Assembly: GCF_009495355.1 (NCBI RefSeq)
Contig: NZ_VZAD01000034.1
Coordinates: 1-64,000 of the forward strand
Source of the DNA: Segatella copri
GTDB lineage: Bacteria > Bacteroidota > Bacteroidia > Bacteroidales > Bacteroidaceae
Length of the DNA: 64,000 nucleotides
Reading direction: 5' to 3'
Shown: positions 10,311-25,972 of the stretch, in pieces
Layout: each line of letters starts with the position of its first letter
How positions within the stretch are numbered: position 1 is the first letter of the stretch
Notes under the pieces: model-generated
Seen by the model: the letters and a program-made list of their open reading frames with translations, nothing else
The model's database searches: none
What the model was told of the DNA's origin: nothing
Position numbers and translations under genes: made by a program

Positions 10311-12059
10311 ATGGAAAACTTTGATTTGGAGTCGCACCTGCAGGGTGTGTACTCCGCCTTTCCCGAAGCGAAGCATCGTCCCCTCATAGGCCTTACTGCC
10401 AATTACGAGGGCATCGACGCTACGCTTCGTGAACGTTATTACAAGCAGGTGGTCGAGGCTGGCGGAGTGCCGGTCATCGTTCCTCCAGTGGCCGACACAG
10501 CCGTCATCATCAATACCCTCCAGCAGTTGGACGGACTCATTCTGACGGGCGGTGGCGACCATAACCCTTTGTGGATGGGCGAGGAGCCTTCGCCCCGTCT
10601 GCACAACATCAATCGTGAGCGCGATCTTGCCGAACTCTTGCTCGTTCGCCTTGCCTTCAATCGTCAGATTCCTATGTTGGGCATCTGTCGTGGCATACAG
10701 ACCTTGGCGATAGCCCTTGGCGGAAAGGTGGAACAAGATATAGAACAGCAGGTGAAGCACAGCCAGGATGCCGACCGTTCGGAGCCAACCCACAGCGTCA
10801 GCTTGGTCAAGGACTCTACCTTATATAATATATATGGCAGCGAGCGCATCATGGTCAATTCGTTTCATCATCAGGCTGTGAGCCAGCCCGGCAAGCGCTT
10901 CCGTGTCATTGCCCGTTCTGCCGACAACATCATCGAGGCCATAGAGAGCAGCGAGTACAAGTCGATTCTCGGTGTGCAATGGCATCCAGAATGGCTCGAG
11001 GCGGAAGGTCAGAAAATCTTCCGTTGGCTGGTAGAAAGGGCAGACGAGTTCTATGCTGCCAAGCAGTTTCATGCCCGCAATCTTACTCTCGACACCCATT
11101 GCGACACTCCGATGTTCTTTCCTCAGGGTGTTCGGTTCGACCATCGCGATTCTCGCATCCTTGTCGACCTTCACAAGATGACTGACGGTCGGCAGGACGC
11201 CACTACGATGGTGGCTTATCTGCCGCAACCCAAGCCCGGTGAGAGTTTCAGCAGCAAGGTGGAGTTTGATGTAGAGACGCCTGTGCAGTATGCCGACCTC
11301 ATCTTCGATAAGATAGGCGACATCGTGGCTCAGAATTCCGATTATCTGGCATTTGCCCGCACTCCAGCCCAATTGTATGCCAACAAGCAGTCTGGTCGCA
11401 AGAGCATCATGCTCGGCATAGAGAACGGTTTGGCAATTCATCACGACCTTGCCAATGTGGAACATTTTGCCCAGCGAGGCATCGTCTATATCACACTTTG
11501 CCACAACGGCGACAATGATATTTGTGACAGTGCCCGTGGCAACAACACCCATCATGGAGTGAGCGACTTTGGCGAGCAGGTTATTCGCGAGATGAACCGT
11601 CTGGGCCTCATGGTCGACCTGAGTCATGCCTCCGAGAAGAGTTTCTACGATGCTCTTCAGATAAGCAGTACACCTATCGTGTGCAGTCACAGCAGTTGCC
11701 GTGCCCTCTGCGATGTTCCACGCAATCTTACCGACGACCAGCTTCGTGCATTGGCTGCCCGTGGAGGTGTGGCGCAAGTTACGCTCTATCATGGTTTCCT
11801 TCGCAAGGATGGCGAGGCCGACATTCTCGACGCCATTGCCCATCTGGAGCATGCCATCAGCATTGTGGGAATCGATCACGTGGGCTTGGGAACCGACTTT
11901 GACGGTGATGGAGGCATTCGCGGACTTGCCGATTCCTCAGAGCTCATTCTCTTCACCCAGCAGCTGTTGCGCCGCAAGTACAGCGAGACAGATATTGCCA
12001 AGATTTGGGGCGGCAACTGGCTTCGTGTCATGCAGCAGGTACAGGAGAGTGTTAAGTGA
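10311..12059 (+). CDS. Fusion: gamma-glutamyl hydrolase-like (PuuD/GATase1) + M19 membrane dipeptidase
   Basis: Two complete enzyme domains in one 582-residue chain. Residues about 20-250 resemble peptidase C26/PuuD-type glutamine amidotransferases: DGLILTGGGDHNP, the nucleophile elbow MLGICRGIQTLA with its Cys, and LGVQWHPEW carrying the His-Glu pair. Residues about 260-580 resemble renal-type membrane dipeptidase (peptidase M19), a zinc enzyme. It has LDTHCDTP (metal-binding HxD), IENGLAI with its Glu, DLSHAS, CSHSSCRALCDVPRNLTD and GLGTDFDGDGG. No signal peptide is visible, so it is probably cytoplasmic. The natural reading is sequential cleavage of gamma-glutamyl compounds and dipeptides, but that is inferred. 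Coupled to the Lrp-type gene upstream. Confidence 0.9.
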   Translation: MENFDLESHLQGVYSAFPEAKHRPLIGLTANYEGIDATLRERYYKQVVEAGGVPVIVPPVADTAVIINTLQQLDGLILTGGGDHNPLWMGEEPSPRLHNINRERDLAELLLVRLAFNRQIPMLGICRGIQTLAIALGGKVEQDIEQQVKHSQDADRSEPTHSVSLVKDSTLYNIYGSERIMVNSFHHQAVSQPGKRFRVIARSADNIIEAIESSEYKSILGVQWHPEWLEAEGQKIFRWLVERADEFYAAKQFHARNLTLDTHCDTPMFFPQGVRFDHRDSRILVDLHKMTDGRQDATTMVAYLPQPKPGESFSSKVEFDVETPVQYADLIFDKIGDIVAQNSDYLAFARTPAQLYANKQSGRKSIMLGIENGLAIHHDLANVEHFAQRGIVYITLCHNGDNDICDSARGNNTHHGVSDFGEQVIREMNRLGLMVDLSHASEKSFYDALQISSTPIVCSHSSCRALCDVPRNLTDDQLRALAARGGVAQVTLYHGFLRKDGEADILDAIAHLEHAISIVGIDHVGLGTDFDGDGGIRGLADSSELILFTQQLLRRKYSETDIAKIWGGNWLRVMQQVQESVK

Positions 12060-12104
12060 AGAATGAAGAAAGTAGAACGTTGTAAGAGAAGAAAATATTA
12101 AACG

Positions 12105-13133
12105 ATGACAAAAAAGATGAAAATCATATTGGGCTTTGTTGCTGCGGCAGCCATTGCTGCCGGGGCTTACACCTATACCAATAGCCATAGTGTGTCGCCC
12201 GACGTGCAGGAGGTGGAAGAGGCCGAGAAACTCAATCCCGTGGGTCCAGCCTTCAATGCCGACTCCGCTTTCGCCTATTGTAACGCACAATGCCAGTTCG
12301 GTCCGCGTACCATGAACAGCGAAGCGCACGAGCGTTGTGGCGAATGGATCGTCAGCAAGTTCCGTCAGTTCGGCTGTCAGGTGGAAACCCAGAAAGCCGA
12401 TCTTAAGGGCTACGACGGTACTGTACTCAAGAACACCAACATCATAGCCCATTACAATCCTCAGGCATCCACACGCATCCTTCTGTGTGCCCATTGGGAC
12501 AGTCGTCCATGGGCAGACAATGATCCCGACAGTGCCAACTGGCGCAAGCCGGTCATGGCTGCCAACGATGGCGCAAGCGGCATAGCCGTGATGTTGGAGA
12601 TAGCCCGACAGCTGCAGGCCGACAAGAAACTGAATCCACAAATCGGAGTCGACTTCGTGTGCTTCGATACCGAGGACTGGGGAACTCCACAGTGGGCTGA
12701 CGTTCAGGACGATGGCGACTCCTGGGCTTTAGGTGCTCAATATTGGAGCGAGAACAAACCTTCTGATTATCAGCCCCGTTACGGCATTCTGCTCGATATG
12801 GTAGGCGGACAGGGCGCTCAGTTCTATCGTGAGGGCATGTCCATGCAGTATGCCTCTTCGGTAGTTCATAAGGTGTGGCGTGCAGCCCGCCAGGCTGGTT
12901 ATGGCAGTTTCTTCCCCAAAAGCGACGGAGGCATGATTACCGACGATCACATTCCTGTCAACCAGAAGGCGAAGATTCCTACCATCGACATCATCCCCTA
13001 TTATCCCGATTGCCAGCAGAGCAGTTTCGGTCCTACTTGGCACACCGTGAACGACGACATGGCTCATCTCGACAAGAACACTCTCAAGGCTGTGGGGCAA
13101 ACCATCATTCAGGTGCTTTACACCGAGGAATAG
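12105..13133 (+). CDS. M28-family zinc protein, probable glutaminyl-peptide cyclotransferase
   Basis: A 342-residue exported or membrane-anchored protein. The N-terminal segment at about 6-24 is a hydrophobic Ala-rich signal/anchor; Met at residue 5 is an alternative start. The rest matches animal-type (type II) glutaminyl cyclases of Bacteroidota. It has CAHWDSRPWADND, the zinc-binding Asp in NDGASGIAVMLE, the Glu in CFDTEDWG, and a C-terminal WHTVNDD with the metal-binding His. Such enzymes convert N-terminal Gln, exposed after signal peptide cleavage, to pyroglutamate. A plain M28 aminopeptidase is the alternative, but the DTEDWG/HWDSRP pattern favours the cyclase. Confidence 0.82.
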   Translation: MTKKMKIILGFVAAAAIAAGAYTYTNSHSVSPDVQEVEEAEKLNPVGPAFNADSAFAYCNAQCQFGPRTMNSEAHERCGEWIVSKFRQFGCQVETQKADLKGYDGTVLKNTNIIAHYNPQASTRILLCAHWDSRPWADNDPDSANWRKPVMAANDGASGIAVMLEIARQLQADKKLNPQIGVDFVCFDTEDWGTPQWADVQDDGDSWALGAQYWSENKPSDYQPRYGILLDMVGGQGAQFYREGMSMQYASSVVHKVWRAARQAGYGSFFPKSDGGMITDDHIPVNQKAKIPTIDIIPYYPDCQQSSFGPTWHTVNDDMAHLDKNTLKAVGQTIIQVLYTEE

Positions 13134-13226
13134 TTTCCTCGTCGTATGTTGGGAAGCCCCATCTTGAGCAGAGATATTGTAGCATTTGTTCACCATGCTG
13201 CATAGCTCTGTATTGTGCCTCCTTTG

Positions 13227-13310
13227 GGTCTTAATAGACGACCGACGCCGGTCGTCTATTGTGACCTCCCTTGGTCATAATAGATGCCTCCGTGGGGCTT
13301 AAGAGACCTC
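13227..13310. repeat. GGTCATAATAGAYGAC repeat family, locus 1
   Basis: Copies: 13227-13242 (forward), 13251-13266 (inverted), 13273-13288 (forward, ending GCC), and a degenerate copy near 13295-13310. The first two form a hairpin with an 11-bp perfect stem (13233-13243 with 13250-13260) and a 6-base loop. The same family occurs at 37006-37089. Confidence 0.85.
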
Positions 13311-13346
13311 AGTTATATAGAGCGCTTTTTCTCTTTAAAAACGAAA

Positions 13347-13378
13347 ATGACACAAAATGACCATGACACAAAATGACC
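13347..13378. repeat. Tandem duplication of a 16-base unit
   Basis: ATGACACAAAATGACC occurs twice in perfect tandem (13347-13362 and 13363-13378). Related TGTCAAAATGTCAAAG-type sequence reappears at about 13465-13490. Confidence 0.9.
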
Positions 13379-13403
13379 GAATTTCAGCATCCTCTTCTCT
13401 GTT

Positions 13404-13515
13404 TTTTAGTCATTAGTCATTAGTCATTAAGAGAAAATGAAGCAAGTCAGGAAACCACGATTCCAAAGTGTCAAAATGTCAAAGTGTCAAAATGACTAAT
13501 GACTAATGACTAAAA
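13404..13515. repeat. 25-base perfect inverted repeat made of AGTCATT units
   Basis: The left arm (13404-13428) is TTTT followed by three AGTCATT units. The right arm (13491-13515) is its exact complement, three AATGACT units then AAAA. The 62-base spacer carries AAAGTGTC/AAAATGTC repeats. A fourth AATGACT follows at 13514-13520. Confidence 0.9.
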
Positions 13516-13567
13516 TGACTAACTTTTCAAGATGTTACAGTATATGACCTTTCCATACATAGAAAAG

Positions 13568-14224
13568 TCAAATCTGTCCCGATTCCACCTGTCTTACCAC
13601 ACGTTCGGTAAGTCGGTCTACGCCGTTGGGGTCGTATTTCTTGGTAAGGCTGGCACCAAAGAGGGCGGCAAAAGCCTGATAGAAGCCAGCACGGATGGGA
13701 CCAAGAAAAGCCTGTATCAGCTGATAGGAAGATGAGTTACACTCGCGGTAAACCAGTTTGATGCAGAGTTTGCCCTGGGCGTAGGTGAGTTTCTTCATGC
13801 GTGGCGTGTATTCGCGCTTGATGTCTTTTTCCACTCGTTTCATGTGCTCGTCTTTCGCCTTTTTGTTGGGCAGTGTTTCCAGATAAGCTCCTGTTTCCAG
13901 AATAATCTGTCTTACTTCCTTGGCGATGGGCAAAACTTTCTTTATGTTGTAAACCAGGCGGTTGTAAGCCATGCGCTGTTTGGCATCCTTGAACTCGGGT
14001 TCCGGATAGACGTACACCTTGTTGACCTCGACATACTGTACGCTGTCTTTGCCAATCAGCACCTTTCCCACCTTCACCATGGGGTCGAAGGTAGGTGTAT
14101 CCATGTCCACCTCCCTGTCTTCGGGATGAGGCGTGGAAGTATCGTCGCTCTGCGCCAAGGCAGGCGCGGAGTGTGCGGCGAGGATAGCTGGAAACAGTAT
14201 GGGTAAAAGTCTTCTCATTTTCAT
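13568..14224 (-). CDS. DUF4294 domain-containing exported protein
   Basis: A 218-residue protein of a Bacteroidota family without known function. A signal peptide spans about residues 1-24 (MRRLLPILFPAILAAHSAPALA). An acidic, Thr/Pro-rich linker follows, then the conserved domain: VYVYPEPEFKDAKQRMAYNRLVYN, then a Lys/Glu-rich helical stretch with KVLPIAKEVRQIILETG. Further on is GKLCIKLVYRECNSSSYQLIQ and the C-terminal RAGFYQAFAALFG..YDPNGVDRL. Probably periplasmic. Divergent from the helix-hairpin-helix gene; both share the 174-base gap with its promoters. Confidence 0.8.
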   Translation of the reverse strand: MKMRRLLPILFPAILAAHSAPALAQSDDTSTPHPEDREVDMDTPTFDPMVKVGKVLIGKDSVQYVEVNKVYVYPEPEFKDAKQRMAYNRLVYNIKKVLPIAKEVRQIILETGAYLETLPNKKAKDEHMKRVEKDIKREYTPRMKKLTYAQGKLCIKLVYRECNSSSYQLIQAFLGPIRAGFYQAFAALFGASLTKKYDPNGVDRLTERVVRQVESGQI

Positions 14225-14398: not shown

Positions 14399-16378
14399 AT
14401 GACGAAGAGGACAATTTGGCTTTTGTTCGTATGTCTGATGCCGGTCATGGTCCTGGCTCAGAAGGAGATAACTGCTGCGACACCGTGGCAGCAATATCTG
14501 GATCAACTGAGCGATGTGGAGGACTTTGAGGACCAGTCGTGGGAGGAATATGAGGACGTGCTGAACGAGTTGGCAGAACACCCCATCAACATCAATACCG
14601 CCACTACGGAAGACCTTCAGCGCCTGCCGTTTCTCACTGCCCAGCAGATAGAGGACATCGAGGCTTACATCTATCGCTATGGGGCGATGAAGAGCCTGGG
14701 CGAGCTTGCCATGATAAACGGCATGTCGTGGGCTCAGCGCCAGTTGTTGACGTGCTTTGTCTATGTCGGTGAGGTGAAGACAAGGAGTTTCCCCTCTCTG
14801 CGCCAGATTGCTAAATATGGAAAGCACGAGCTGATGGGCATGGTGAAAGTGCCCCTGTATGAGCGCAAGGGCGATGCCGACGGCAGTTATATGGGGAGTC
14901 GTTACAAGCACTGGCTGCGCTATCAGTTTCGTTATAGCGACAAAGTGAAAATGGGTTTCACTGGTTCGAAAGATGCTGGCGAACCCTTCATGAGCAAAGG
15001 CAACGGAGCTGGATACGATTTCTATTCTTTTTATCTTCAGATACGCGGTTGGGGCAGGCTGAAAAACCTCACCTTGGGCCGCTACAGGCTGCATGAGGGA
15101 ATGGGACTGATACTGAACAACGACTTCTCGTTTGGCAAGTTGTCCACACTCTCGGCTCTGGGCCGCAACAGCAATGTGATCAGGGCGCACAGCTCGCGCT
15201 ATGCAGCCAACTATCTGCAGGGCGCGGCTGCCACGGTGACGGTAGTGCGCGGACTCGACGTGACAGGCTTTGTGTCGTATCGCAAGATAGACGCCACACT
15301 GAAGGACGGAGGCATACAGACCATTCTCACCTCAGGACTGCACCGCACCGCCTCCGAGATGGCTAAGAAGGATGTGGCGTCGGCTTTTCTTGCAGGAGGC
15401 AATGTGAGTTATCGAAGGGGCGCTCTGCATGTGGGAGCCACAGGTTTCTACAACTCTTTCTCGCTGCCCCTTACGCCCAACCGCAAGTTGTTGTACAAAC
15501 GTTTTGCGCCTGTAGGGAGTGCATTCTGGAATGCGAGTGTAGACTATTCCTACGTTTCGCCCCGGCTTGTGGTGCAAGGCGAGACGGCAACCGGCTCGTG
15601 TGGGGTCGTGGCCACAGTCAACGCCGTGAGCTACGTCTTCTCCAACCGCTTCTCGTTGGTAGCTCTTCAGCGCTTTTATCCCTATCGTTACTATTCGCTT
15701 TACGCCCGTTCCTTTGCCGACGGAACCAGTGTGCAGGACGAAAGTGGCGTGTACCTGGGCGGCAGCTGGACGCCTACCGACAGCTGGAACGTGACGGCTT
15801 ACACTGATGTGGCTTATTTCGCCTGGCCCAAGTTTGGCACCACGGGCAGCACGCACAGTTGGGACAATCTGCTCAGCATCACCTTCCGTCCATCGGGCTC
15901 AACCTTGTTGGGTGCACGTTACCGTTATCGCGACAAGCAGAACAATCAGACCCAGCGAGGCAGACTTTATGCCACGTATGGGGGCAGAAGCTGGAGTTGT
16001 AAGACGCAGTGCGACATGAGTTATGTGCGCGAGCCCGAAGCTGCAAGCCGAGGATGGATGGCAAGCCAGCAAGCAGCCTACCGATGGCGGTGGCTGAGGC
16101 TGACGTGTATGGCCGGCTACTTCAGTACCGACGACTATGCTGCGCGCATCTATGCCAGCGAGCCCACACTGCTCTACGGCACACATTTCGGCAGTTTCTT
16201 CGGCCGTGGCATGCGCCTTGTGCTGACAACCCGCGCCGATGTGGGCAGTCATCTCGTAGCCCTCTGCAAGGTGGGCAGTACCAAGTATTTCGACCGCGAC
16301 TGTATTTCGTCAGGACTGCAGCAGATAGACGATTCCTCGCAGACTGATATCGAAATACAGGTGAAATGGCGATGGTAA
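14399..16378 (+). CDS. Helix-hairpin-helix protein with C-terminal outer-membrane beta-barrel-like region
   Basis: A 659-residue exported protein. A signal peptide (about 1-20, ending VLAQ) is followed by an acidic stretch. A ComEA-like helix-hairpin-helix region comes next (about 62-125: HPININTATTEDLQRLPFL, then a second turn at GAMKSLGELAMINGMSW). The remaining 500 residues are rich in alternating hydrophobic and aromatic residues with many Gly/Tyr/Arg, ending in a short aromatic strand (IEIQVKWRW). That ending is typical of outer-membrane barrels. Such HhH-barrel proteins are common in Bacteroidota; a link to DNA uptake or surface binding is possible but not shown. Confidence 0.75.
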   Translation: MTKRTIWLLFVCLMPVMVLAQKEITAATPWQQYLDQLSDVEDFEDQSWEEYEDVLNELAEHPININTATTEDLQRLPFLTAQQIEDIEAYIYRYGAMKSLGELAMINGMSWAQRQLLTCFVYVGEVKTRSFPSLRQIAKYGKHELMGMVKVPLYERKGDADGSYMGSRYKHWLRYQFRYSDKVKMGFTGSKDAGEPFMSKGNGAGYDFYSFYLQIRGWGRLKNLTLGRYRLHEGMGLILNNDFSFGKLSTLSALGRNSNVIRAHSSRYAANYLQGAAATVTVVRGLDVTGFVSYRKIDATLKDGGIQTILTSGLHRTASEMAKKDVASAFLAGGNVSYRRGALHVGATGFYNSFSLPLTPNRKLLYKRFAPVGSAFWNASVDYSYVSPRLVVQGETATGSCGVVATVNAVSYVFSNRFSLVALQRFYPYRYYSLYARSFADGTSVQDESGVYLGGSWTPTDSWNVTAYTDVAYFAWPKFGTTGSTHSWDNLLSITFRPSGSTLLGARYRYRDKQNNQTQRGRLYATYGGRSWSCKTQCDMSYVREPEAASRGWMASQQAAYRWRWLRLTCMAGYFSTDDYAARIYASEPTLLYGTHFGSFFGRGMRLVLTTRADVGSHLVALCKVGSTKYFDRDCISSGLQQIDDSSQTDIEIQVKWRW

Positions 16379-16399
16379 GTCAAAATACGCAGCCAATTA

Positions 16400-16431
16400 T
16401 TTGTATATTACATGATTTTTAAGTAATTTTG
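16400..16431 (+). promoter_or_regulatory. Promoter of the polyol-phosphate-type operon
   Basis: TTTG (16400-16403), 20 bases, then TAATTTTG (16424-16431): a good match to the Bacteroidota consensus. It lies 43 bases before the GTG start at 16475 and probably drives at least the four genes to 22005. Confidence 0.75.
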
Positions 16432-16474
16432 CCAACTGTAACAACATGTAATAAACAGCTAAAATAACACAAAC

Positions 16475-18472
16475 GTGAGATTAAAGAGAAATTTGTTTAC
16501 CTCGCCACTCTGTTTCGTCATCAATATGGCGATTGTATACATCGTTTATGAAATATGCCGCCTGGTGTTTCTGGCAGTCAACTGGAGTATGTTCTCCGAC
16601 TCGCTTACCTGGCAGGCTTTTGGCGAGATGCTCGTGGGCGGCTGGTTCTTCGACACTTCTGCCATTCTTTATACCAACGCACTCTATGCGCTCCTGATGC
16701 TTTTCCCCATCCACTACAAGGAGAGTGCCCTGTATCAGAAGGTAGCCAAATGGGTGTTTGTCGTGGTGAATGCCGTGAGCATAGTGGCCAATCTGACCGA
16801 CTGTGTGTATTTTCAGTACACAACCCGTCGCACCACAGGAACAGTGTTCTCTGAGTTCAAGAACGAGAACAACTTAGGTAGCATCTTCGGCGTAGAGCTT
16901 TTGCGCCATTGGTATTTAGTGCTCATCGGCGTGGTGCTGATAGCTGCACTGTGGTATTTCTACCGCATGCCCAAGGGCGAGCGTCCTGAGGCTGTGAAGC
17001 GCCCTTACAGGTTGAAACCTATGGCAAGATACTATGCCGTGCAGACGGTTTGTCTGGCAGTCTTCGTGCCTTTCTGTGTTGCAGGTATGCGAGGTGGATT
17101 CACTACAGCCGTGCGTCCCATCACCATCAGCAATGCCAACCAGTATGTGGAGCGCCCGCAAGAAGCGGCTATTGTATTAAACACTCCTTTTTCTATTATC
17201 CGTACCATCGACAAGCCCATCTTCGAGGTGCCAAACTACTATACAGAAAAGCAACTCAATGCCATCTATTCGCCTATCCATCATCCTTCTGATACGCTTG
17301 TTAAGCGCAAGAAGAACGTTGTGGTAATCATCATAGAGAGTTTCGGACGAGAATATATTGGCGGCTTCAATAAGTGGCTCGATGGTGGCAAGTATAAGGG
17401 TTATACACCTTTTGTTGACTCGCTGATGCAGCATAGTGCCACTTATCTGTACTCATATTGCAATGGTAGAAAGAGCATCGACGGAATGCCCAGTATCTTG
17501 TCGAGCATTCCAATGTTTGTGGAACCATTCTTCCTGACGCCTGCCTCGATGAACAATGTGAGCGGACTGGCTGGCGAACTGAAGAAGGAGGGCTATTATT
17601 CTGCCTTCTTCCACGGAGCCGAGAATGGTTCGATGGGCTTTCAGGCTTTTGCCCGCACCACAGGTTTTACGGATTATTTCGGTCGTACAGAATATGATGC
17701 AGACAAGCGCTTTGATGGAGACAAGGATTTTGATGGCACATGGGCAATTTGGGACGAGCCTTTCATGCAGTTTTACGCCACAAAAATGGGCGAGATGAAG
17801 CAGCCTTTCATGACGGCTCTCTTTACAGCCTCTTCCCATCATCCGTATGTCATACCTGATGAGTATAAGAAGGTTTTTCCTGAGGAAGGTATCGTCATCC
17901 ACAAATGTATACGCTATACCGACAATGCCCTGCGGAAGTTCTTCAACAAGGCGAAAACCATGCCTTGGTATAAGAATACGCTCTTTGTGATTACATCCGA
18001 CCACACCAACTTGAGCGACCATGCATACTATCAGACCGACTTAGGTGGTTTCTGCTCGCCTATCATCTTCTTCGACCCGAGCGGTGAATTTAAGCCTGGC
18101 ATGCGCGATGCCATCGCCCAGCAGATAGACATCATGCCTACGGTACTGAGCTATTTGGGCTACGACAAGAAGTATGTGGGCTTCGGCATCGACCTGCTCA
18201 CCACGCCAGCCAAGGACACATGGGCTGTCAACTACATCAATGGTTTCTATCAGTATGTGAAGGGTGACTATCTGTTGCAGTGGGACGGACAGAAGACCAA
18301 GGCTATGTATCGTTTCCGCACCGACCTGTTGCTGAAGAACAACGTGGCAGACAAGGAACCCAAGGTGCGCCAGGAGATGGAGCGTCAGGTGAAAGCCATC
18401 ATACAGTCGTACATGGAGCGAATGACGCAAAACCGACTGGTGTATGCCAATGAGAACAACAAAAAGAAGTAA
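16475..18472 (+). CDS. LtaS-like sulfatase-fold phosphotransferase (membrane)
   Basis: A 665-residue membrane enzyme of the LTA synthase/phosphoglycerol transferase family. About five transmembrane segments lie in residues 10-205, followed by an extracytoplasmic sulfatase-fold domain. Metal-site motifs: IIIESFGRE (Glu 288), CNGRKSIDG with a Ser (334) where the nucleophile is expected, SSHHPY, and FVITSDHTN. Family members transfer glycerol-phosphate or phosphoethanolamine to lipids or glycans; the donor here is unknown. The frame opens with GTG, and the first four residues (MRLK) precede the first membrane segment. First gene of a same-strand set with TagF-, aminotransferase- and TagD-like genes, suggesting a polyol-phosphate or related decoration. 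Confidence 0.88.
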   Translation: MRLKRNLFTSPLCFVINMAIVYIVYEICRLVFLAVNWSMFSDSLTWQAFGEMLVGGWFFDTSAILYTNALYALLMLFPIHYKESALYQKVAKWVFVVVNAVSIVANLTDCVYFQYTTRRTTGTVFSEFKNENNLGSIFGVELLRHWYLVLIGVVLIAALWYFYRMPKGERPEAVKRPYRLKPMARYYAVQTVCLAVFVPFCVAGMRGGFTTAVRPITISNANQYVERPQEAAIVLNTPFSIIRTIDKPIFEVPNYYTEKQLNAIYSPIHHPSDTLVKRKKNVVVIIIESFGREYIGGFNKWLDGGKYKGYTPFVDSLMQHSATYLYSYCNGRKSIDGMPSILSSIPMFVEPFFLTPASMNNVSGLAGELKKEGYYSAFFHGAENGSMGFQAFARTTGFTDYFGRTEYDADKRFDGDKDFDGTWAIWDEPFMQFYATKMGEMKQPFMTALFTASSHHPYVIPDEYKKVFPEEGIVIHKCIRYTDNALRKFFNKAKTMPWYKNTLFVITSDHTNLSDHAYYQTDLGGFCSPIIFFDPSGEFKPGMRDAIAQQIDIMPTVLSYLGYDKKYVGFGIDLLTTPAKDTWAVNYINGFYQYVKGDYLLQWDGQKTKAMYRFRTDLLLKNNVADKEPKVRQEMERQVKAIIQSYMERMTQNRLVYANENNKKK

Positions 18473-18493
18473 ACAACAAGAAAAAGCAAAGAT

Positions 18494-19552
18494 ATGAGAA
18501 TCGTTCTGTTTTGTGAGAACAAGTATGCCATCGACATTCTCAACCCGATACAGGAATACGTGACAGCCAACCACTTGCCGCACGAGGTGCTGTGGTACAT
18601 TCATCAGCCCAAGATAGACAAGTTTGAGTATGCCGATAAGGTGAGATGGACAGGCTCAATACAGGAGGTTTACGACTTCTCTCCCGATGCCATCTACGTG
18701 CCGGGAAACATCGTCCCCTACTATCTGCCTGGAGTCAAGATACAGGTGTTTCATGGCTATGCTGCCGAGAAGAAAGACCACTGGATTATACGCAGATATT
18801 TCGATACATACTTTACACAGGGTCCTTATTTCACTTCACATTTTAAGGCTTTGTCGAAGAAGTATGGCGACTTCGAGGTGCTTGAGACAGGATGGCCCAA
18901 GCAAGACTGGATCAAGGCCAATCTGCATAAGTATGATGCCGAGCGTGAGCAGTTGCTCAGCCAGAGTGGCAAGAAAACCATCATTCTCTATGCGCCCACT
19001 TTCTCGCCCAAGCTTACATCGCTGCCTTACATCAAGGAACAGCTCGGCAGACTGGCAGAGGAGCGAAATGCCTTGGTGCTGATGAAGTTTCATCCATTGA
19101 CCCGACAGGAATGGGTAGACGAATATCGCGACTGGGCGAGCCAGAGGAATGATGTCATCTTCATCGACAAGGGCGAGAATGTCACCAAGTATCAGCTCAT
19201 GTCGGATGTGCTCATCAGCGACACGTCGTCCACCATCTATGAGTTCCTGTTGCTCTCGCGTCCTGTCATCACGCTGGGCACAATCTCGAAAGCCATCTAC
19301 TGGGAGAACATCACCGAGCCGTCGCTGCTCATTGCTGCTTACGACCATGCCCTGACCGACCCTGAGGCTATAGCCAAGCGGCAGTGGATAGTAGACAACT
19401 ACGATCCCTATCTGGACGGCAGGGTGTGCGAGCGCATGATAGCTGGTGCTGAGGACTACATACGTCGCCACGGCGTGCCGAAGAAGAGGAAGCTGAACCT
19501 TTGGCGTAAATATACCAGCATCAAAACATTTGGAAGAATCAAAAAAGGATAA
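18494..19552 (+). CDS. CDP-glycerol glycerophosphotransferase-like (TagB/TagF family)
   Basis: A 352-residue GT-B-like transferase. Family features include the early region ending HGYAAEKKDHW, ILYAPTFSPKLTS in the middle, LMKFHPL, and the C-terminal nucleotide-binding segment SDVLISDTSSTIYEFLLLSRPVI. In Gram-positives these enzymes move polyol phosphate from a CDP-activated donor to a lipid-linked acceptor at the inner membrane face. No membrane segment is present; a basic C-terminus (KKRKLNLWRK) could dock to the membrane. It starts 21 bases after the LtaS-like gene and ends 7 bases before the aminotransferase, a tight operon. Confidence 0.87.
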   Translation: MRIVLFCENKYAIDILNPIQEYVTANHLPHEVLWYIHQPKIDKFEYADKVRWTGSIQEVYDFSPDAIYVPGNIVPYYLPGVKIQVFHGYAAEKKDHWIIRRYFDTYFTQGPYFTSHFKALSKKYGDFEVLETGWPKQDWIKANLHKYDAEREQLLSQSGKKTIILYAPTFSPKLTSLPYIKEQLGRLAEERNALVLMKFHPLTRQEWVDEYRDWASQRNDVIFIDKGENVTKYQLMSDVLISDTSSTIYEFLLLSRPVITLGTISKAIYWENITEPSLLIAAYDHALTDPEAIAKRQWIVDNYDPYLDGRVCERMIAGAEDYIRRHGVPKKRKLNLWRKYTSIKTFGRIKKG

Positions 19553-19559
19553 ATAAAAT

Positions 19560-20633
19560 ATGCTTAATTTTACAGTAGGACCTGTCATGGCAAGCGATGA
19601 GGTTAGAGCTATCGGTGCTGAGCAGGTTCCATATTTCAGAACAGCAGAGTTCTCAGAAACCATGAAGGAGAACGAACGGCTGATGAAGGAGTTTGCCAAG
19701 GCTTCTGATGATGCCCGCGTGGTGTTTATCACAGGTTCGGGAACTGCCTCGATGGAGGCTGTGGTGATGAATTGCTTCACGTCTGTCGACAAGCTGTTGG
19801 TGGTGAACGGAGGTAGCTTCGGTCATCGTTTCGTTCAACTGTGCCAGATACACGACATTCCTTATACCGAAATCAAGTTGGAGACGGGCAATCCGTTGAC
19901 AGCCGAAGAGCTGAGCGCCTATGAGGGACAAGGCTATACAGGATTCCTTGTCAACCTGCACGAAACCTCAACGGGTGTTCTCTACGACATAAAGATGATC
20001 AGCGACTTCTGTCATCGCAACCAAATGTTCTTGGCAGTTGACTCCATCAGTTCGTTCCTTGCCGATCCATTCGACATGCAGGCATTGGGCGTCAACGTGA
20101 TGATAACAGGTTCGCAGAAAGCTCTGGCTTGTCCTCCGGGCATATCGGTTATCGTTCTCGATGCTGAGGCTCAGAAGCGAGTGGAAGCCAACCAGGTGAA
20201 GTCGATGTACTTCGACCTGAAGGACGCCCTGAAGAATGGCGAGCGTGGACAGACTCCCTTTACACCTGCAGTCGGAACATTGTTGCAGATCAATGCCCGG
20301 CTGAAGGAGATAGAGCGCAACGGAGGCGTGGAGAGCGAGAACCGCAGAATGAAAATGTTGGCAGAAGACTTCAGAAGCAAGATCAAGGACTTGCCATTCA
20401 CCATCGTGTCGAAGTCGATGTCGAATGCTGTCACTCCGCTCCATCCGCTCCATGCGTCGGCCTACGACATCTTCCTGAAACTGAAGGATGAGTATGGCAT
20501 CTGGGTTTGCCCTAATGGCGGAGACATGGCAGAGAAGGTGTTCCGTGTGGGACATCTCGGACATCTCTCACCCGAGGACAACACCACTTTGGTGAATGCA
20601 CTCAAGGACATGCAGCAAAAAGGACTGCTCTGA
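19560..20633 (+). CDS. Class V PLP-dependent aminotransferase (alanine-glyoxylate/AEP type)
   Basis: A 357-residue fold-type I aminotransferase. It begins [15 protein letters not shown]. It has the PLP-phosphate region [25 protein letters not shown] with the PLP-nitrogen Asp, and the Schiff-base Lys in [11 protein letters not shown]. The closest described groups are alanine-glyoxylate, serine-pyruvate and 2-aminoethylphosphonate-pyruvate aminotransferases. Placed between a CDP-polyol-type transferase (7 bases upstream) and a cytidylyltransferase fusion (25 bases downstream), it probably makes or consumes the small alcohol/amine that is activated with CTP. The substrate cannot be told from sequence. 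Confidence 0.87.
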
Positions 20634-20658
20634 ACAAAAACTCCATAAACAAAGAATA

Positions 20659-22005
20659 ATGGTAAAAGTCATCACATACGGAACCTACGACCTGTTGCAT
20701 TACGGTCATGTTCGCCTCTTGGAGCGTGCCAAGGCTTTGGGCGATTATCTCATCGTGGGAGTAACATCCGACACCTTCGACCGCGAACGTGGAAAGATCA
20801 ACGTACAGCAGTCGCTCATGGAGCGTGTGGAGGCTGTAAGAGCCACGGGGCTGGCAGATGAAATTATCATCGAGGAATATGAGGGACAGAAGATTGACGA
20901 CATCAAGCGCCTGAATGTCGACATCTTTACGGTAGGCTCCGACTGGAAAGGCAAGTTCGACTATCTTAAAGCCTATTGTCAGGTGGTGTATTTGGATAGG
21001 ACCAGTGGCGTGTCGAGCACAGAGATACGCTCAGAGCAGCAAGTGGTGCGCTTAGGACTGGTGGGCGAGTCGCCCATACTCAACAAGATAGAGCGTGAGA
21101 GCCAGTATGTGAATGGACTTGAGTCGGGCAAGGTGTTTACACTGAACGACACTTATCTTTCAGACAGTCTGAAGCGCCCATCCCAGCAGGCTGCATCCTA
21201 TCAGGACTTGCTCGACGACAGCGATGCGCTCTATGTCATTTCGGCTCCCGAGAAGCATTATGCACAGATCAAGGAGGCGCTGCAGAAGGGGAAGCACGTG
21301 CTCTGTGAGTCGCCAGTCACCATGGAGACTGAGCAGTGGGAAGAACTGCGACAGATGGCAAAAGACAGGAAGTTGGTGCTCATGGATTCCATCAAGACGG
21401 CTTATTCTGTGGCTTACTATCGTCTTCTATTATTGGCAAAGGGAGGCGTCATAGGCGACATCATTTCTGTAGATGCCACCTGTACAAGTCTGGTGGATTT
21501 TGATCCGACTCAAGACTCTCAGAAGAGCCTTTACGAATGGAACAGCATCTGCGCATGGGGTCCTACAGCGCTCCTGCCCATCTTTCAGTTGTTGGGAACA
21601 GGTTTCACCTCAAAGCAGATTGCCACTCACTTCTTAGACGAGCATCAGAAGTATGATGCCTTTACGAAGATTTCTTTAGTTTATCCTCATGCTGTAGCCT
21701 CGCTCAAGGTGGGGCAGGGTGTCAAGTCGGAAGGCTCGCTTGTCATATCAGGCACCAAGGGCTATATCTATGTGCCGGCTCCTTGGTGGAAAACCGATTA
21801 CTTTGAGGTGAGATACGAGAATCCGCAGAACAACAAGCGTTATTTCTATCAGTTGGACGGCGAGGGCTTGCGCTATGAGCTCCTCTCCTTTCTCAAGGCC
21901 ATCCGCACCGGCAAGGACTTCTCGTATGTGTCGGGCGACATATCGGAATGCATCATCAAGGTTATTGCCGATTTTGAGGCACGAAAGGATATGGTTGTTA
22001 TCTGA
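20659..22005 (+). CDS. Fusion: TagD-like cytidylyltransferase + Gfo/Idh/MocA-type oxidoreductase domain
   Basis: A 448-residue two-domain protein. Residues 1-130 are a glycerol-3-phosphate cytidylyltransferase-like domain with GTYDLLHYGHVRLLERA (HxGH motif) and RTSGVSSTEIR. Residues about 138-448 resemble Gfo/Idh/MocA NAD(P)-dependent dehydrogenases: a Rossmann start RLGLVGES, ALYVISAPEKHYAQIKEALQKGKHVLCESP, then a C-terminal alpha/beta domain. The dinucleotide loop (GLVGES) and the EKP motif (here ESP) are both atypical, so cofactor use may be altered. I chose ATG 20659 because MVKVITYGTYD is the family N-terminus; the frame extends 21 codons further into the aminotransferase gene. Last gene of the cluster. 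Confidence 0.85.
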   Translation: MVKVITYGTYDLLHYGHVRLLERAKALGDYLIVGVTSDTFDRERGKINVQQSLMERVEAVRATGLADEIIIEEYEGQKIDDIKRLNVDIFTVGSDWKGKFDYLKAYCQVVYLDRTSGVSSTEIRSEQQVVRLGLVGESPILNKIERESQYVNGLESGKVFTLNDTYLSDSLKRPSQQAASYQDLLDDSDALYVISAPEKHYAQIKEALQKGKHVLCESPVTMETEQWEELRQMAKDRKLVLMDSIKTAYSVAYYRLLLLAKGGVIGDIISVDATCTSLVDFDPTQDSQKSLYEWNSICAWGPTALLPIFQLLGTGFTSKQIATHFLDEHQKYDAFTKISLVYPHAVASLKVGQGVKSEGSLVISGTKGYIYVPAPWWKTDYFEVRYENPQNNKRYFYQLDGEGLRYELLSFLKAIRTGKDFSYVSGDISECIIKVIADFEARKDMVVI

Positions 22006-22091
22006 TAAGGATGTTAATCCTTCTTGCACCTCCTTCCAATAGAGGAACTGAAATAGCAGCGCGCTGCAAATCTTATGTATTTTCGAAAGAA

Positions 22092-22153
22092 AAATGCAGT
22101 GCATTTCATTTTTCTTGAGAAAGTTTTGTATATTTGCAGTGTAATTCATTTTT
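22092..22153. repeat. Direct repeat and palindrome around the AAA/DUF4143 promoter
   Basis: GCAGTGCATTTCATTTTT (22096-22113) and GCAGTGTAATTCATTTTT (22136-22153) match at 16 of 18 positions, exactly 40 bases apart. The first overlaps a palindrome AAATGC-AGT-GCATTT (22092-22106). They bracket the TATATTTG box, the arrangement expected of operator sites. Confidence 0.65.
22129..22136 (+). promoter_or_regulatory. Promoter -7 box of the AAA/DUF4143 gene
   Basis: TATATTTG, 27 bases before the ATG at 22163, matches TAnnTTTG. It suggests independent expression from the preceding operon. Confidence 0.65.
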
Positions 22154-22162
22154 TTTCTGCTT

Positions 22163-23362
22163 ATGATAGAACGTACAGAGTATATGTCTCTTCTGGAGAA
22201 ATGGAGAGATAAGAAAATAATAAAAGTGGTGACTGGTATCCGTCGTTGTGGCAAGTCTTCTCTTTTGAGGATGTTTCGTGAGAAGCTTCTTGTTGAAGGC
22301 GTGTCTGAACAACAGGTGCAGGAACTCAACTTCGAAGACTTGGACAATGAGCCATTTCTCAACTATAAGGCTTTGTACTCGCATGTCAAGAAGAATCTTT
22401 GTCCAGGAAAGATGAATTATCTCTTTTTTGATGAGATTCAGATGGTGGATGGATTCCAAAAGGCGATAGACAGCTTATTCTTATTAGATAATGTTGACCT
22501 CTATGTGACTGGCTCCAATGCTTATCTCTTGTCTGGTGAGATAGCAACCTTACTTACTGGTAGATATGTAGAAATCAAGTTGTTCCCATTCTCTTTCAAT
22601 GAATATCTCCAATCTATGCCTTCTGATGCGAATATTGAGGCAGCTTATCGTGAATATATCGAGAAGAGTTCATTCCCTTATGTCTTGCAAATCAAAAATG
22701 ACCGTGAGATGGTGCGTGAATACCTTACGGGGTTGTACAACACGATAGTACTGAAAGACGTGGTGAGTCGCAGGAAGATAACGGATGTCATGATGCTGGA
22801 GAGCGTTGTTCGTTTTCTGGCCGATAATATTGGCAATATATCCGTCATCAAGCGTATCAGTGACACGATGACTTCTTTGGGAAGAAAAATAGCTTCGCAT
22901 ACTGTAGAAAACTATATCTCAGCCTTAACGAACAGTTATATTTTTTATTCTGTTCCGAGATATGATGCCAAGGGGAAGCAATTGTTGAAGACAGGACAGA
23001 AGTATTATCTTGTGGATGTTGGTTTGCGCAGTATCATCAATGGTACCAAGGGTGGCGACTTGGGGCATGTGTTGGAGAATGTCGTCTATTTGGAATTGGC
23101 GCGTCGGGGTGGAGAAATCTATGTTGGAAAAATAGGTGATGCCGAGATAGATTTCGTTGTTGTTCAAGGTGAGCGAAAAGCGTATTATCAAGTTTCACTT
23201 AGTGTGAGGGATGAGGATACAATGAAGCGAGAATTGGAACCCTTGCAAGCCATACCGGATAATTATCCCAAATACCTATTGACGCTTGACAACGATCCGC
23301 AGATATTCCATGATGGCATCAAGCAACAGTATGTGTTGGACTGGTTGAGAAGGGAAAATTAA
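22163..23362 (+). CDS. AAA-family ATPase with DUF4143 domain
   Basis: A 399-residue ATP-binding protein of the AAA_14/DUF4143 family. The P-loop is TGIRRCGKSSLL (about residues 27-38), Walker B is YLFFDEIQ, and sensor-like YVTGSNAYLLSGE and TLLTGRY follow. The C-terminal DUF4143 part (about 195-399) has SYIFYSVPRYDAKGKQLLK..YYLVDVGLR, then a nuclease-like HVLENVVYLELARRGGEIYVGK..EIDFVV. The precise role of these proteins is unknown. It has its own promoter with flanking direct repeats, and its sequence looks more AT-rich than the operon before it, so it may be a later insertion. Confidence 0.88.
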   Translation: MIERTEYMSLLEKWRDKKIIKVVTGIRRCGKSSLLRMFREKLLVEGVSEQQVQELNFEDLDNEPFLNYKALYSHVKKNLCPGKMNYLFFDEIQMVDGFQKAIDSLFLLDNVDLYVTGSNAYLLSGEIATLLTGRYVEIKLFPFSFNEYLQSMPSDANIEAAYREYIEKSSFPYVLQIKNDREMVREYLTGLYNTIVLKDVVSRRKITDVMMLESVVRFLADNIGNISVIKRISDTMTSLGRKIASHTVENYISALTNSYIFYSVPRYDAKGKQLLKTGQKYYLVDVGLRSIINGTKGGDLGHVLENVVYLELARRGGEIYVGKIGDAEIDFVVVQGERKAYYQVSLSVRDEDTMKRELEPLQAIPDNYPKYLLTLDNDPQIFHDGIKQQYVLDWLRREN

Positions 23363-23378: not shown

Positions 23379-24158
23379 ATGGATATGAGCAATAATAAGA
23401 TATCAGTAGTAATCAATACTTACAATGCTTCGCAGCATTTGGCACGAGTGCTTGAAACCGTCAAAGACTTCGACGAGATAGTGATTTGCGACATGGAAAG
23501 TACCGATGATACTTGCGACATAGCAAAGCGATATGGATGTAAGATTGTTGTCTTCCCGCGTGGCAACTATCAAATCTGTGAGCCCGCACGCCAAACTGCT
23601 ATTGATGCTGCTTCTCATAAATGGGTCTTTGTAGTGGATGCTGATGAGTTGGTTCCTATGCAGTTAAAGGATTATCTTTATGGTTTGATAGCTCATGAAG
23701 ATGTTGCCCAGGGATATTATGTTCCAAGAAAAAGTAAGTTTATGGGTCGGTTTATGCATTGTTTTTATCCTGATTACCAACTTCGCTTTTTTATAAAGGA
23801 AGGTACTGTTTGGCCTGCTATCATTCATGCAGATCCGATTATTCAAGGCCGAATTGATAAATTGCCTTCAAACAATGAAAATTTGGCATTTGTACATCTT
23901 GCCGACGATTCCATTTCTTCTCGTATGGCTAAAATCAACCAATATACAGAAAGTGAAATAGAAAAGAAGAAAGACCGAAATTATGGAATAGGTGCTTTGT
24001 TTTATCGTCCGTTTGTTAGATTTTTTAGAGCTTACATACAGAAGGGCGGTTTCCGCGATGGAATAGAAGGCTTTATTTGTGCTTGTTATGAAGGTATTTA
24101 TCAATTTGTGGCAGTGAGCAAGATACTGGAAGATAGGAATCGTAAGAATGAAAAATGA
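23379..24158 (+). CDS. Glycosyltransferase family 2 (KdtX/WaaE-like)
   Basis: A 259-residue GT-A enzyme. It shows ISVVINTYNASQHLARVLETV, the nucleotide-sugar aspartate region EIVICDMESTDDT and the DXD-type VVDADEL at about residue 85. This pattern, with no membrane segment, resembles lipopolysaccharide-core beta-glucosyltransferases of the KdtX/WaaE group. Met 1 and Met 3 are both possible starts. It follows the AAA/DUF4143 gene by 16 bases and converges on a minus-strand run of envelope glycosyltransferases, separated only by a shared hairpin terminator. Confidence 0.85.
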   Translation: MDMSNNKISVVINTYNASQHLARVLETVKDFDEIVICDMESTDDTCDIAKRYGCKIVVFPRGNYQICEPARQTAIDAASHKWVFVVDADELVPMQLKDYLYGLIAHEDVAQGYYVPRKSKFMGRFMHCFYPDYQLRFFIKEGTVWPAIIHADPIIQGRIDKLPSNNENLAFVHLADDSISSRMAKINQYTESEIEKKKDRNYGIGALFYRPFVRFFRAYIQKGGFRDGIEGFICACYEGIYQFVAVSKILEDRNRKNEK

Positions 24159-24217: not shown

Positions 24218-25018
24218 TTAGGATAGATACTTATCTATTCCGTTTTCACACCATGAAAGGTGTTCTCGTTTTACTTTGTCAAGTTCTGCAAGGTGTCGTT
24301 GTTCGTTATTTTTAGATGCCTCTTTGTGGTAAAGGTGGTAAACATTTCCTCCCATTTTAAGAGCTTTCTTCTTGACACCAGCAAAATGAAGGCGAAAAGC
24401 AATTTCTCCATCCTCGTGTCCCCATTGCATTAAGTCCTCATTGAAGCCGTTTACCTTAATTAGGTCATCTTTCCAAAAGGCCATATTGCAGCCACGTAAG
24501 TGGTCTATTTTTTTAGCATATCTTTCTGCCATAAAATGGCGTAAGAACTTGGAACGGAAACTGTTGAAAACAAACGTAATTGGCATATTCCAAATGCTCA
24601 GCTTGAATTTTTTAGAATCCATCAATCGTTTGGTTACTTTAGGAGATAGCTTCACTCTACTGCCACATACGAAATAGTTCTTTTCTGCAAGTTCAAGATG
24701 GTCACTTACGAAATGAGGTGACAGGACAACATCTCCATCAACTTGTAAGATGTACTCTCCTGAAATTTGCGCAATAGCTTTGTTTAGTATGATAGTTTTG
24801 CGAAATCCTTTGTCTTCATGCCATATGTGTTTGATAGGAATGGAGGTTTCATTTCTTAATCGTTCAATGAGATCTGTAGTCTCATGTGAAGAACCATCAT
24901 CTGCTATAACAATCTCATCGGGTAAAATGGTTTGTGTAAACATACTTTTGATGGAAAACTCTAATGCTTCCGGCCAATTGTATGTAGATACAAGAATACT
25001 AACTTTTATTTTTTTCAT
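24218..25018 (-). CDS. Glycosyltransferase family 2 with galactosyltransferase-type C-terminus
   Basis: A 266-residue inverting-type GT-A enzyme. It has VSILVSTYNWPEALEFSIKS, EIVIADDGSSHET, LQVDGDVVLSPHF (DXD) and a C-terminal GCNMAFWKDDLIKVNGFNEDLMQWGHEDGEI segment. That last segment is the glyco_transf_7C signature seen in beta-galactosyl/GalNAc and chondroitin-type transferases. The sugar is unknown. Last gene of the minus-strand operon that starts with the MsbA-like exporter; 12 bases separate it from the preceding GT2 gene. Confidence 0.88.
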   Translation of the reverse strand: MKKIKVSILVSTYNWPEALEFSIKSMFTQTILPDEIVIADDGSSHETTDLIERLRNETSIPIKHIWHEDKGFRKTIILNKAIAQISGEYILQVDGDVVLSPHFVSDHLELAEKNYFVCGSRVKLSPKVTKRLMDSKKFKLSIWNMPITFVFNSFRSKFLRHFMAERYAKKIDHLRGCNMAFWKDDLIKVNGFNEDLMQWGHEDGEIAFRLHFAGVKKKALKMGGNVYHLYHKEASKNNEQRHLAELDKVKREHLSWCENGIDKYLS

Positions 25019-25030
25019 TGTTATCTTGTT

Positions 25031-25972
25031 TTATAGTCTTAGCTTAATATGTAATATCTGGCAGAGTGTTTTGATAATGCGCTCCAAGTAATAGCATTTC
25101 TTAGTTACTCCATATTTGCGCATGTTGGCAAGTGTTTGTTTCTTGCGGCTTGCCTCCATGTTCGTTCTGATGATTTCCTTATATACATAACCTTTTGATA
25201 AGGTAAGTTGAAATCCATTTAATATAAGTTTATCCCAAAGATAGGTGAAAATGATTAGCTTTTCTGCTAATTGCTTTTCCTTTCTATCTATTTGAACTGT
25301 AACACTTTGGCTATGTCGCCTGAACCGATTAAGTCGTTTGTGTAAGATGGCGACATCACCTTTCTCTGCCATTTTTATCCAGAAGAGCCAATCTCCACAA
25401 TAGTGCATAGCAGTAAAGTCTTTATCAATGAGGTGATACTTGCTCTTGCGGAAGACGGTCATGCTGGCATTGTAGGTTTCATCATGATATAACATGAAGT
25501 CTTTTAGGTATTGGTGGGAAGTATAGGTGTATGTCTTGCCATTATCTTTACCTAAAGGCCAGGTATCATAATTACGTTCCAATTTCTTTCCATCCTGGTC
25601 TACTAGGATTGACCCACAATGTGTGAATGAGATACGAGGTTTTTCGTCTAATATTCTCACAGCATTTTGTAGGAATGTCTTATCGCAATAATCATCGCTT
25701 TCTGCTATCCAGATATATTCGCCTTGTGCCAAAGCGATACCTTTCTCCCATTGTACGAATGGGTTGCCCGTGTTTGTTTCACCCAAGATAAGGTGGCTTA
25801 CCTTGGGATGCGATGCAAATTGTTGAAGATATTGGCGGCTGCCGTCTGTTGAGCAGTCATCTAGTAATATAACTTCATAGTCGGTAAATGTCTGCTCAAA
25901 TATGGATTGTAACCTTTGAGGAAGATATTTGCGGTAATTGTAGTTGGGTACAATAATGCTGACTTTTGGCAT
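25031..25972 (-). CDS. Glycosyltransferase family 2
   Basis: A 313-residue GT2 enzyme. VSIIVPNYNYRKYLPQRLQSI, VILLDDCSTDGS and IWIAESDDYCD (DXD-type) fill the N-terminal 110 residues. The rest is a basic helical region ending without a membrane segment. Donor and acceptor are unknown. It lies 12 bases after the fucosyltransferase-like gene and 12 bases before the next GT2 gene in the minus-strand operon, so it probably adds one sugar to an LPS core or O-antigen. Confidence 0.9.
   Translation of the reverse strand: MPKVSIIVPNYNYRKYLPQRLQSIFEQTFTDYEVILLDDCSTDGSRQYLQQFASHPKVSHLILGETNTGNPFVQWEKGIALAQGEYIWIAESDDYCDKTFLQNAVRILDEKPRISFTHCGSILVDQDGKKLERNYDTWPLGKDNGKTYTYTSHQYLKDFMLYHDETYNASMTVFRKSKYHLIDKDFTAMHYCGDWLFWIKMAEKGDVAILHKRLNRFRRHSQSVTVQIDRKEKQLAEKLIIFTYLWDKLILNGFQLTLSKGYVYKEIIRTNMEASRKKQTLANMRKYGVTKKCYYLERIIKTLCQILHIKLRL

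Follow-up and report, generated by a model that had tools for sequence, protein, structure and literature searches.

What does a set of enzymes related to those of teichoic acid synthesis make in a member of the Bacteroidota? The question is raised by four adjacent forward-strand genes of Segatella copri (RefSeq assembly GCF_009495355.1, contig NZ_VZAD01000034.1), located at 16,475–22,005 of the 64,000-nucleotide stretch that was analysed and that is called the window hereafter. The initial annotation had recognized in them an LtaS-type sulfatase-fold transferase, a TagB/TagF-type phosphotransferase (TagF below), a class V aminotransferase (AT) and a TagD-type cytidylyltransferase (CT) fused to a dehydrogenase-like domain (the fusion is called CT-GFO below, as this domain resembles the Gfo/Idh/MocA family), and had proposed that all four act in one pathway. 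Our analysis shows that TagF, AT and CT-GFO (the trio) are a real three-gene module. With moderate confidence, we propose that the trio makes an amino-alcohol phosphate, activates it with CTP and attaches it to a surface glycan, most likely the core of the lipopolysaccharide (LPS), while the fused domain would not act as a dehydrogenase and the LtaS-type gene would stand apart.

A three-gene module within and beyond the genus

In the genus survey of 150 genomes, in which associations between presences and absences were evaluated by Fisher tests, AT was found in 16 genomes, CT-GFO in 29, TagF in 15 and the LtaS-type gene in 94. The CT-GFO proteins comprise orthologs at no less than 61% identity (13 genomes) and others at 42–57% (16 genomes, two of them with fragments only). 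All 13 genomes with an orthologous CT-GFO carry AT (p = 3e-16), while AT and a close TagF (at least 57% identity; 12 genomes) are shared by 11 genomes (p = 3e-12), and orthologous CT-GFO and TagF by 10 (p = 2e-11). Regarding gene order, the three genes are co-directional in the window and in S. copri iA622 (L035), where MsbA, a lipid A acyltransferase, TagF, AT and CT-GFO lie on one strand, the acyltransferase overlapping TagF by 4 bases. TagF has a divergent orientation in the nine other genomes of the genus that carry the trio; it adjoins AT in seven, and a LicD gene lies in between in two. A conserved four-gene order is not borne out, as, among the loci whose gene order was compared, the exact order exists in the window only, and the LtaS-type gene is not adjacent to the trio in iA622. 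In the wider order (393 genomes), AT was matched at E ≤ 1e-60 in seven genomes, namely the own genome, three at 60–69% identity and three at 36–45%; the distribution of the module is patchy. In Prevotella falsenii, TagF and CT-GFO are full-length, whereas the AT gene next to them is broken into two frames of 212 and 159 aa that overlap (L106:7995-9072 and L118:10327-11404). The proteins of these two loci (G017) are 100% identical, and the loci very probably come from a single genome, which is counted twice among the 98 CT-GFO proteins discussed below; L097 and L127/L156 (G422), too, seem to represent a single genome.

AT and CT-GFO stay paired across phyla. A pattern scan with AT over the genomes of 84,980 species yielded 81 relatives. 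The 80 loci retained reach down to 41% identity; 67 belong to Bacillota, and the others include Bacteroidota, Akkermansia, Treponema, an Eggerthellales and a Thermoguttaceae. A CT lies near AT (here and below, within three genes) in 72 of the 80 loci, as CT-GFO in 67 and without the fused domain in five, and CT-GFO is immediately adjacent to AT on the same strand in 57. A phosphotransferase is near AT in 53 loci, LicD in 50 (PF04991, 151.7 bits for a representative) and TagF in five. Moreover, 19 loci have near AT genes for octopine dehydrogenase, ornithine-cyclodeaminase family, L-amino-acid-ligase ATP-grasp or GNAT proteins, which are kinds of enzymes that often elaborate primary amines, and in two loci (L067, L074) two such genes are inserted between AT and CT-GFO. 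This placement suggests, indirectly, that AT and CT act on the same amine-bearing compound. In four loci (L038, L093, L094, L096), AT follows a cluster of proteins that look by eye like YidC-type insertases, an unexpected companion for a glycan gene.

The upstream gene (16,475–18,472, forward strand) encodes an LtaS/OpgB-type sulfatase-fold protein of 665 aa, with four hydrophobic N-terminal segments and the motif residues E288, S334, D509 and H510; a serine is aligned with the threonine of LtaS, and we take this aligned position to be the nucleophile. The protein scores above the cutoff of the Sulfatase profile (PF00884, 101.6 bits) and far below that of the NCBIfam lipoteichoic acid synthase family (NF053595, 83.1 vs. 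970 bits), and the own genome has five sulfatase-fold genes. At face value, the tight spacing of the four genes, as well as the lipid A region shared by LtaS and TagF in several relatives (L106/L118, L119, L148), might argue that all four act together, with the LtaS-type enzyme carrying out the last transfer of the group, to an acceptor at the surface. We nevertheless hold this to be very unlikely: across the 150 genomes, the LtaS-type gene is independent of both AT (p = 0.59) and TagF (p = 1.0), it is missing from three of the ten trio genomes, and it adjoins MsbA or a lipid A acyltransferase in seven of 12 sampled genomes devoid of AT, while LtaS-type enzymes normally take lipid donors. On co-occurrence and gene context it was rejected as a member of the pathway, which is reduced to the trio with the LtaS-type gene as a neighbour linked only by position; its product may modify the envelope independently. 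The single pathway initially proposed therefore survives for three of the four genes, which co-occur in relatives far beyond chance and cluster, and fails for the fourth.

As for the locus itself, the four open reading frames were all found, with profile scores above the Pfam cutoffs: beyond the sulfatase domain, Glyphos_transf (PF04464) gives 77.4 bits, Aminotran_5 (PF00266) 78.0, CTP_transf_like (PF01467) 69.8 and GFO_IDH_MocA (PF01408) 52.5, and the motifs expected of the TagF-like transferase, AT and the CT domain are all there and conserved in relatives. The announced gaps of 21, 7 and 25 bases are reproduced when CT-GFO is taken to start at ATG 20,659, where the alignment of relatives begins, the mechanical reading frame beginning at 20,596. 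Upstream of the four genes, where the initial annotation had placed a consensus promoter, a predicted Bacteroides-type promoter (TTTG-n20-TAnnTTTG, here TTTG-n20-TAATTTTG) lies at 16,400–16,431 on the forward strand; the assignment follows what we take to be the Bacteroides consensus, and the pattern matches 10 times in the window vs. 1.37 expected in shuffles. A sigma-70 type scan of 16,300–22,300 remained at chance (nine sites vs. 6.7 ± 3.0 in shuffles), as did a terminator scan.

The probable activated compound and acceptor

AT (19,560–20,633, forward strand; 357 aa, with K187 as the pyridoxal phosphate lysine) has as its nearest PDB entry 3f0h, titled only ‘Aminotransferase’, and is distant from 2-aminoethylphosphonate (AEP) transaminases. 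In the first step of the proposed cytoplasmic route, it would aminate a small phosphorylated carbonyl. The leading candidate is the conversion of dihydroxyacetone phosphate to serinol phosphate; ethanolamine phosphate, made from a precursor, and 3-aminopropane-1,2-diol phosphate, made from glyceraldehyde-3-phosphate, are ranked after it. There are precedents for serinol phosphate in the parts of two papers that bear on it: Cj1437 converts dihydroxyacetone phosphate into (S)-serinol phosphate for the Campylobacter jejuni capsule (PMC11800397), and human PSAT1 makes serinol phosphate from the same compound as a slow side reaction (PMC9283133).

In the second step, the TagD-type domain of CT-GFO (gene at 20,659–22,005, forward strand, 448 aa; CT domain at 20,659–21,036, residues 1–126) would combine this phosphate with CTP into a CDP-amino-alcohol. 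Its active-site motifs (H14-x-x-H17 and R114-T115...S119-S120) are retained and conserved in relatives, as the pathway of the initial annotation requires. The domain is closest to glycerol-3-phosphate cytidylyltransferase (1coz, E = 7e-36), then to ethanolamine-phosphate cytidylyltransferase (3elb, 3e-16), and since it nonetheless scores below the curated cutoff for the former, an amino analogue of glycerol-3-phosphate would fit.

In the third step, the TagF-like enzyme (18,494–19,552, forward strand; 352 aa) would put the phospho-amino-alcohol on a sugar of a lipid-linked glycan, with release of CMP, as its family and key histidines suggest; in other lineages, LicD is the usual neighbour for this step. 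The protein belongs to the Glyphos_transf family (cutoff 22.1 bits), its H200 aligns with the histidine of the TagF motif RMHYLI (H87 is assigned by motif only), and the nearest PDB folds of its model (pLDDT 76) are TagF and TarL. It falls far short of the NCBIfam equivalogs TarF (28.0 vs. 550 bits) and TarL (45.9 vs. 1000 bits), and the LicD profile has no match within positions 9,001–36,000 of the window.

Downstream of the trio, the segment at 23.4–29.7 kb encodes three family 2 glycosyltransferases (one at 23,379–24,158 on the forward strand, two at 24,218–25,972 on the reverse strand), followed on the reverse strand by a lipid A acyltransferase (26,837–27,769), the counterpart of which directly precedes TagF in iA622, and by an MsbA-type ABC transporter (27,826–29,715; an ABC exporter according to Pfam, the MsbA label coming from position and resemblance). 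More generally, a lipid A acyltransferase lies within the window or the fetched stretch of eight of the 12 TagF genomes. Because acyltransferase, MsbA and glycosyltransferases lie near the trio, the LPS core or lipid A is the likely acceptor. A single addition is inferred rather than a polymer; LicD enzymes make single additions. The teichoic-acid-like polymer suggested by the initial annotation is not indicated, as LicD is what usually lies nearby in other lineages and the genes around the trio in the window serve to make lipid A and LPS sugars. In the part of PMC12643348 concerned with the LPS core of S. copri DSM 18205, a 2-aminoethyl phosphate is described at O-4 of Kdo (3-deoxy-D-manno-oct-2-ulosonic acid) and assigned by its authors to eptA/eptB homologs. 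Between CT-GFO and the glycosyltransferases, an AAA_14/DUF4143 ATPase gene (22,163–23,362) may be a mobile insertion. Further upstream, a 582-aa open reading frame (10,311–12,059) appears by eye to fuse a peptidase C26-type glutamine amidotransferase with a membrane-dipeptidase-like protein.

The fused Gfo/Idh/MocA-like domain

The second domain of CT-GFO (21,046–22,002, forward strand; residues 130–448) has a real Gfo/Idh/MocA two-domain fold, which bears out the initial label ‘dehydrogenase-like’ at the level of structure: in the AlphaFold model of CT-GFO (pLDDT 90.9), it matches 3evn and KijD10 (Foldseek target TM-scores of 0.83 and 0.82). The dehydrogenase function that this likeness evokes is probably lost. 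In the window protein, the match to the Pfam profile sets in only at position 51 and misses the NAD-binding start, while the relatives in L045 and L120, the latter with an intact EKP, match it from its beginning; GLVGESPI stands in place of the dinucleotide motif GxGxxA/G, and ESP replaces EKP, the lysine of which is catalytic in Gfo/Idh/MocA oxidoreductases. Among 98 CT-GFO proteins (that of L047 being very divergent), 80 have AT near them, 12 a short-chain dehydrogenase/reductase (SDR) gene, six neither and none both, as counted with a narrow SDR profile (two SDRs as input, threshold of 200 bits). The NAD motif, scored loosely as GxxGxG[RS][IV], is kept in 12/12 SDR-linked, 5/80 AT-linked and 5/6 other proteins, and the EKP lysine in 0/12, 2/80 and 2/6, respectively. 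Since SDR-linked proteins keep the NAD motif yet lack the lysine, the latter was lost in both branches and the former mainly in the AT-linked branch.

The domain is probably not a normal dehydrogenase, and we read it as a former reductase retained for binding or assembly, or possibly regulation. Activity as an oxidoreductase that makes or alters the substrate by means of an atypical cofactor site would also be compatible with the complete fold of the model, with the nearly invariant PAPWWKTDYFExR motif of CT-GFO relatives and with purifying selection on the domain (dN/dS of 0.055, 0.137 and 0.101 against L035, L116 and L147, three pairs near saturation with dS of 2.1–3.3, dS being infinite in the four others of seven comparisons). 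That reading is rather unlikely, given that the NAD motif is gone in 75 and the EKP lysine in 78 of the 80 AT-linked proteins, and that AT pairs with a CT lacking the fused domain in five of the 80 loci.

In a quick CT-GFO tree with many weak forks, the SDR-linked forms (along with L140, which has AT nearby) and four EKP-keeping forms (two with AT) fall outside the AT-linked bulk, while the proteins of the window and of other TagF-type Prevotella sit inside a mostly Bacillota group, which suggests lateral transfer. The SDR-linked forms of the genus (L121-L123, L132-L139, L141) make up a second CT-GFO clade, paired with one of two SDR types, often with LicD and with the NAD motif intact, and probably correspond to a CDP-polyol route. 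A viral-structure search with the CT-GFO model returned nothing usable.

Competing readings and known systems

Two other products have to be weighed against an amino-alcohol. If the product were plain CDP-glycerol or another CDP-polyol, TagF would build a teichoic-acid-like polymer and AT would belong to a separate sugar pathway. TagD and TagF/TarL are indeed the nearest solved relatives, and the pairing of paralogous CT-GFO proteins with SDR genes is what polyol making predicts, but the SDR-linked form lies in a different clade, AT accompanies every orthologous CT-GFO of the genus and lies together with CT across phyla, and outside the genus the usual neighbour is LicD rather than TagF (50 vs. 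5 of 80 loci); hence, we deem this reading improbable.

A phosphonate route was tested because AT resembles AEP transaminases: AT would be such an enzyme and the final product CMP-2-aminoethylphosphonate. The top NCBIfam match of AT is PhnW-AepZ, albeit far under its cutoff (172.5 vs. 360.8 bits), and a true phosphoenolpyruvate (PEP) mutase (at least 176 bits, with EDKxxxxxNS) exists in four of the 19 AT genomes surveyed (two of which are only 55% and 70% complete), about 6 kb or less from AT in three of them. However, the other 15 genomes are without a true PEP mutase: of the nine with matches over the Pfam cutoff, five score 32–34 bits and lack the motif. In the own genome, which is 99.5% complete, the sole match reaches 30.7 bits, under the cutoff of 31.5, and lacks the motif too. 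Moreover, L147 and L154 each have an AEP transaminase besides AT (471.2 and 380.3 bits, above the PhnW-AepZ cutoff), position and score point to a similar gene in L144, L147 also has its own MobA-type nucleotidyltransferase, and the AT of the window shares 29% identity over 268 residues with the AEP transaminase of L147. Lacking a PEP mutase in the own genome and with AT below the AEP-transaminase cutoff, the phosphonate reading was dropped for the window as highly improbable. In one of the 80 AT loci (L052), a 669-aa protein (11589-13598) has EDKxxxxxNS behind what appear by eye to be nucleotidyltransferase domains, downstream of a run of AT, CT-GFO and LicD; the stretch downstream showed no further transaminase, and the AT of this locus may be used for phosphonate. 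Phosphonate clusters (PEP mutase, thiamine pyrophosphate-enzyme decarboxylase, AEP transaminase) also lie beside the AT-CT module at L147:1239-5530, L144:8892-13001 and L154:8614-12876, which hints that both types of module, phosphonate and amino-alcohol, are used in one kind of tailoring locus.

Some observations nonetheless weigh against the amino-alcohol reading. The CT domain scores 116.9 bits against the 165.4-bit cutoff of the curated glycerol-3-phosphate cytidylyltransferase family (TIGR01518, TagD), so that its substrate is not secured. Position 75 of CT, a glutamate in 75 of the 80 AT-linked proteins and hydrophobic in all 12 SDR-linked ones, was considered as an amine contact and dropped: L140 and L142, in the SDR clade with AT in the locus, carry leucine and valine, and glutamate is found in the second copy of L069, in L120 and in L068, none of which has AT near it, so the residue follows ancestry instead of AT presence and is not used as evidence. 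The loss of the EKP lysine, being common to all SDR-linked proteins, is not tied to AT either. Within the genus, three of the 16 AT genomes (G006, G488, G492) lack an orthologous CT-GFO (G488 and G492 having a paralog), TagF is lacking in three of the 13 genomes with the CT-GFO ortholog (G475, G518, G531), and G535 has TagF without AT or CT-GFO. Across phyla, no CT is near AT in eight of the 80 loci and neither LicD nor TagF in 27, some of the contigs being short; LicD and TagF are not strict alternatives, since both are near AT in two loci and beside five CT-GFO proteins of the genus; and the 80 loci (of 81) were collected with AT itself as bait, many from metagenome-assembled genomes. Finally, the fetched stretches of G012, G442, G444 and G509 have no lipid A acyltransferase, the contig of G444 being only 9 kb long.

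In its proposed logic, the trio resembles the Pnt and Lic pathways, and its superfamilies are also those of teichoic acid synthesis, but the proteins of the locus score below the curated cutoffs for AEP transaminase, TagD, TarF, TarL and LtaS. The papers cited in this comparison are used for the parts that describe the systems named. Pnt phosphonyl tailoring (AEP transaminase and PntC; PMC6697681) likewise couples a class V transaminase, from the superfamily to which AT belongs, with a subsequent activation by CTP, but its cytidylyltransferase is of the LicC type instead of the TagD type; the own genome has no PEP mutase, and AT scores far below the AEP family cutoff. Wall teichoic acid TagD and TagB/TagF, along with the TagF-like polymerases of Gram-negative capsules (PMC5974469), have the same superfamilies and key histidine motifs, whereas the trio has an aminotransferase, a short transferase (352 aa), LicD as its usual companion elsewhere and a lipid A/LPS neighbourhood. 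The CDP-6-D-glucitol and CDP-mannitol routes (HS5.18-HS5.17, Mnp1-Mnp2; PMC10918830), which the SDR-linked paralogs resemble, also combine a cytidylyltransferase with a carbonyl-modifying enzyme into an activated open-chain building block, but through an IspD-type (PF01128) enzyme and a reduction, where the trio would aminate. The Cj1437 capsule route (PMC11800397) shares the transamination of dihydroxyacetone phosphate to serinol phosphate for a surface polysaccharide, except that serinol phosphate is joined as an amide, with later removal of the phosphate and no CTP activation in the part describing it. The Lic-1 phosphocholine pathway (PMC10434233) and the phosphorylcholine transferase mf1 (PMC11982090), which also accepts CDP-ethanolamine, bring a CDP-activated zwitterionic head group to glycans or glycolipids; in the trio, the alcohol would come from an aminotransferase rather than from imported choline (Lic-1), and the transferase of the window is TagF-like.

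The decoration route looks undescribed, even if each step resembles known chemistry: among the matches listed in the open-licence PMC literature, no description of a pathway combining AT, CT-GFO and LicD or TagF was found. As a more tentative extension, we consider it possible that the module defines an undescribed CDP-amino-alcohol (e.g., CDP-serinol or CDP-3-aminopropanediol) obtained by direct transamination of a glycolytic triose phosphate, and thereby a zwitterionic surface phosphodiester that needs neither choline nor a phospholipid donor, through LicD in many gut-type Bacillota and through TagF in some Bacteroidota, the former dehydrogenase domain having taken a non-redox role in binding or regulation after an aminotransferase replaced a reductase.

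The well-studied zwitterionic head groups are supplied by choline, phosphoethanolamine lipids or phosphonates, and zwitterionic phosphodiesters on the glycans of gut bacteria shape immune recognition. The CT-GFO family offers a clear case of a redox domain losing its NAD motif while the fusion persists. If the proposal is true, it would give a testable function to the solved aminotransferase 3f0h, and a self-contained route from triose phosphate to CDP-amino-alcohol in several phyla would account for head groups that may be met in chemical work without genes for them.

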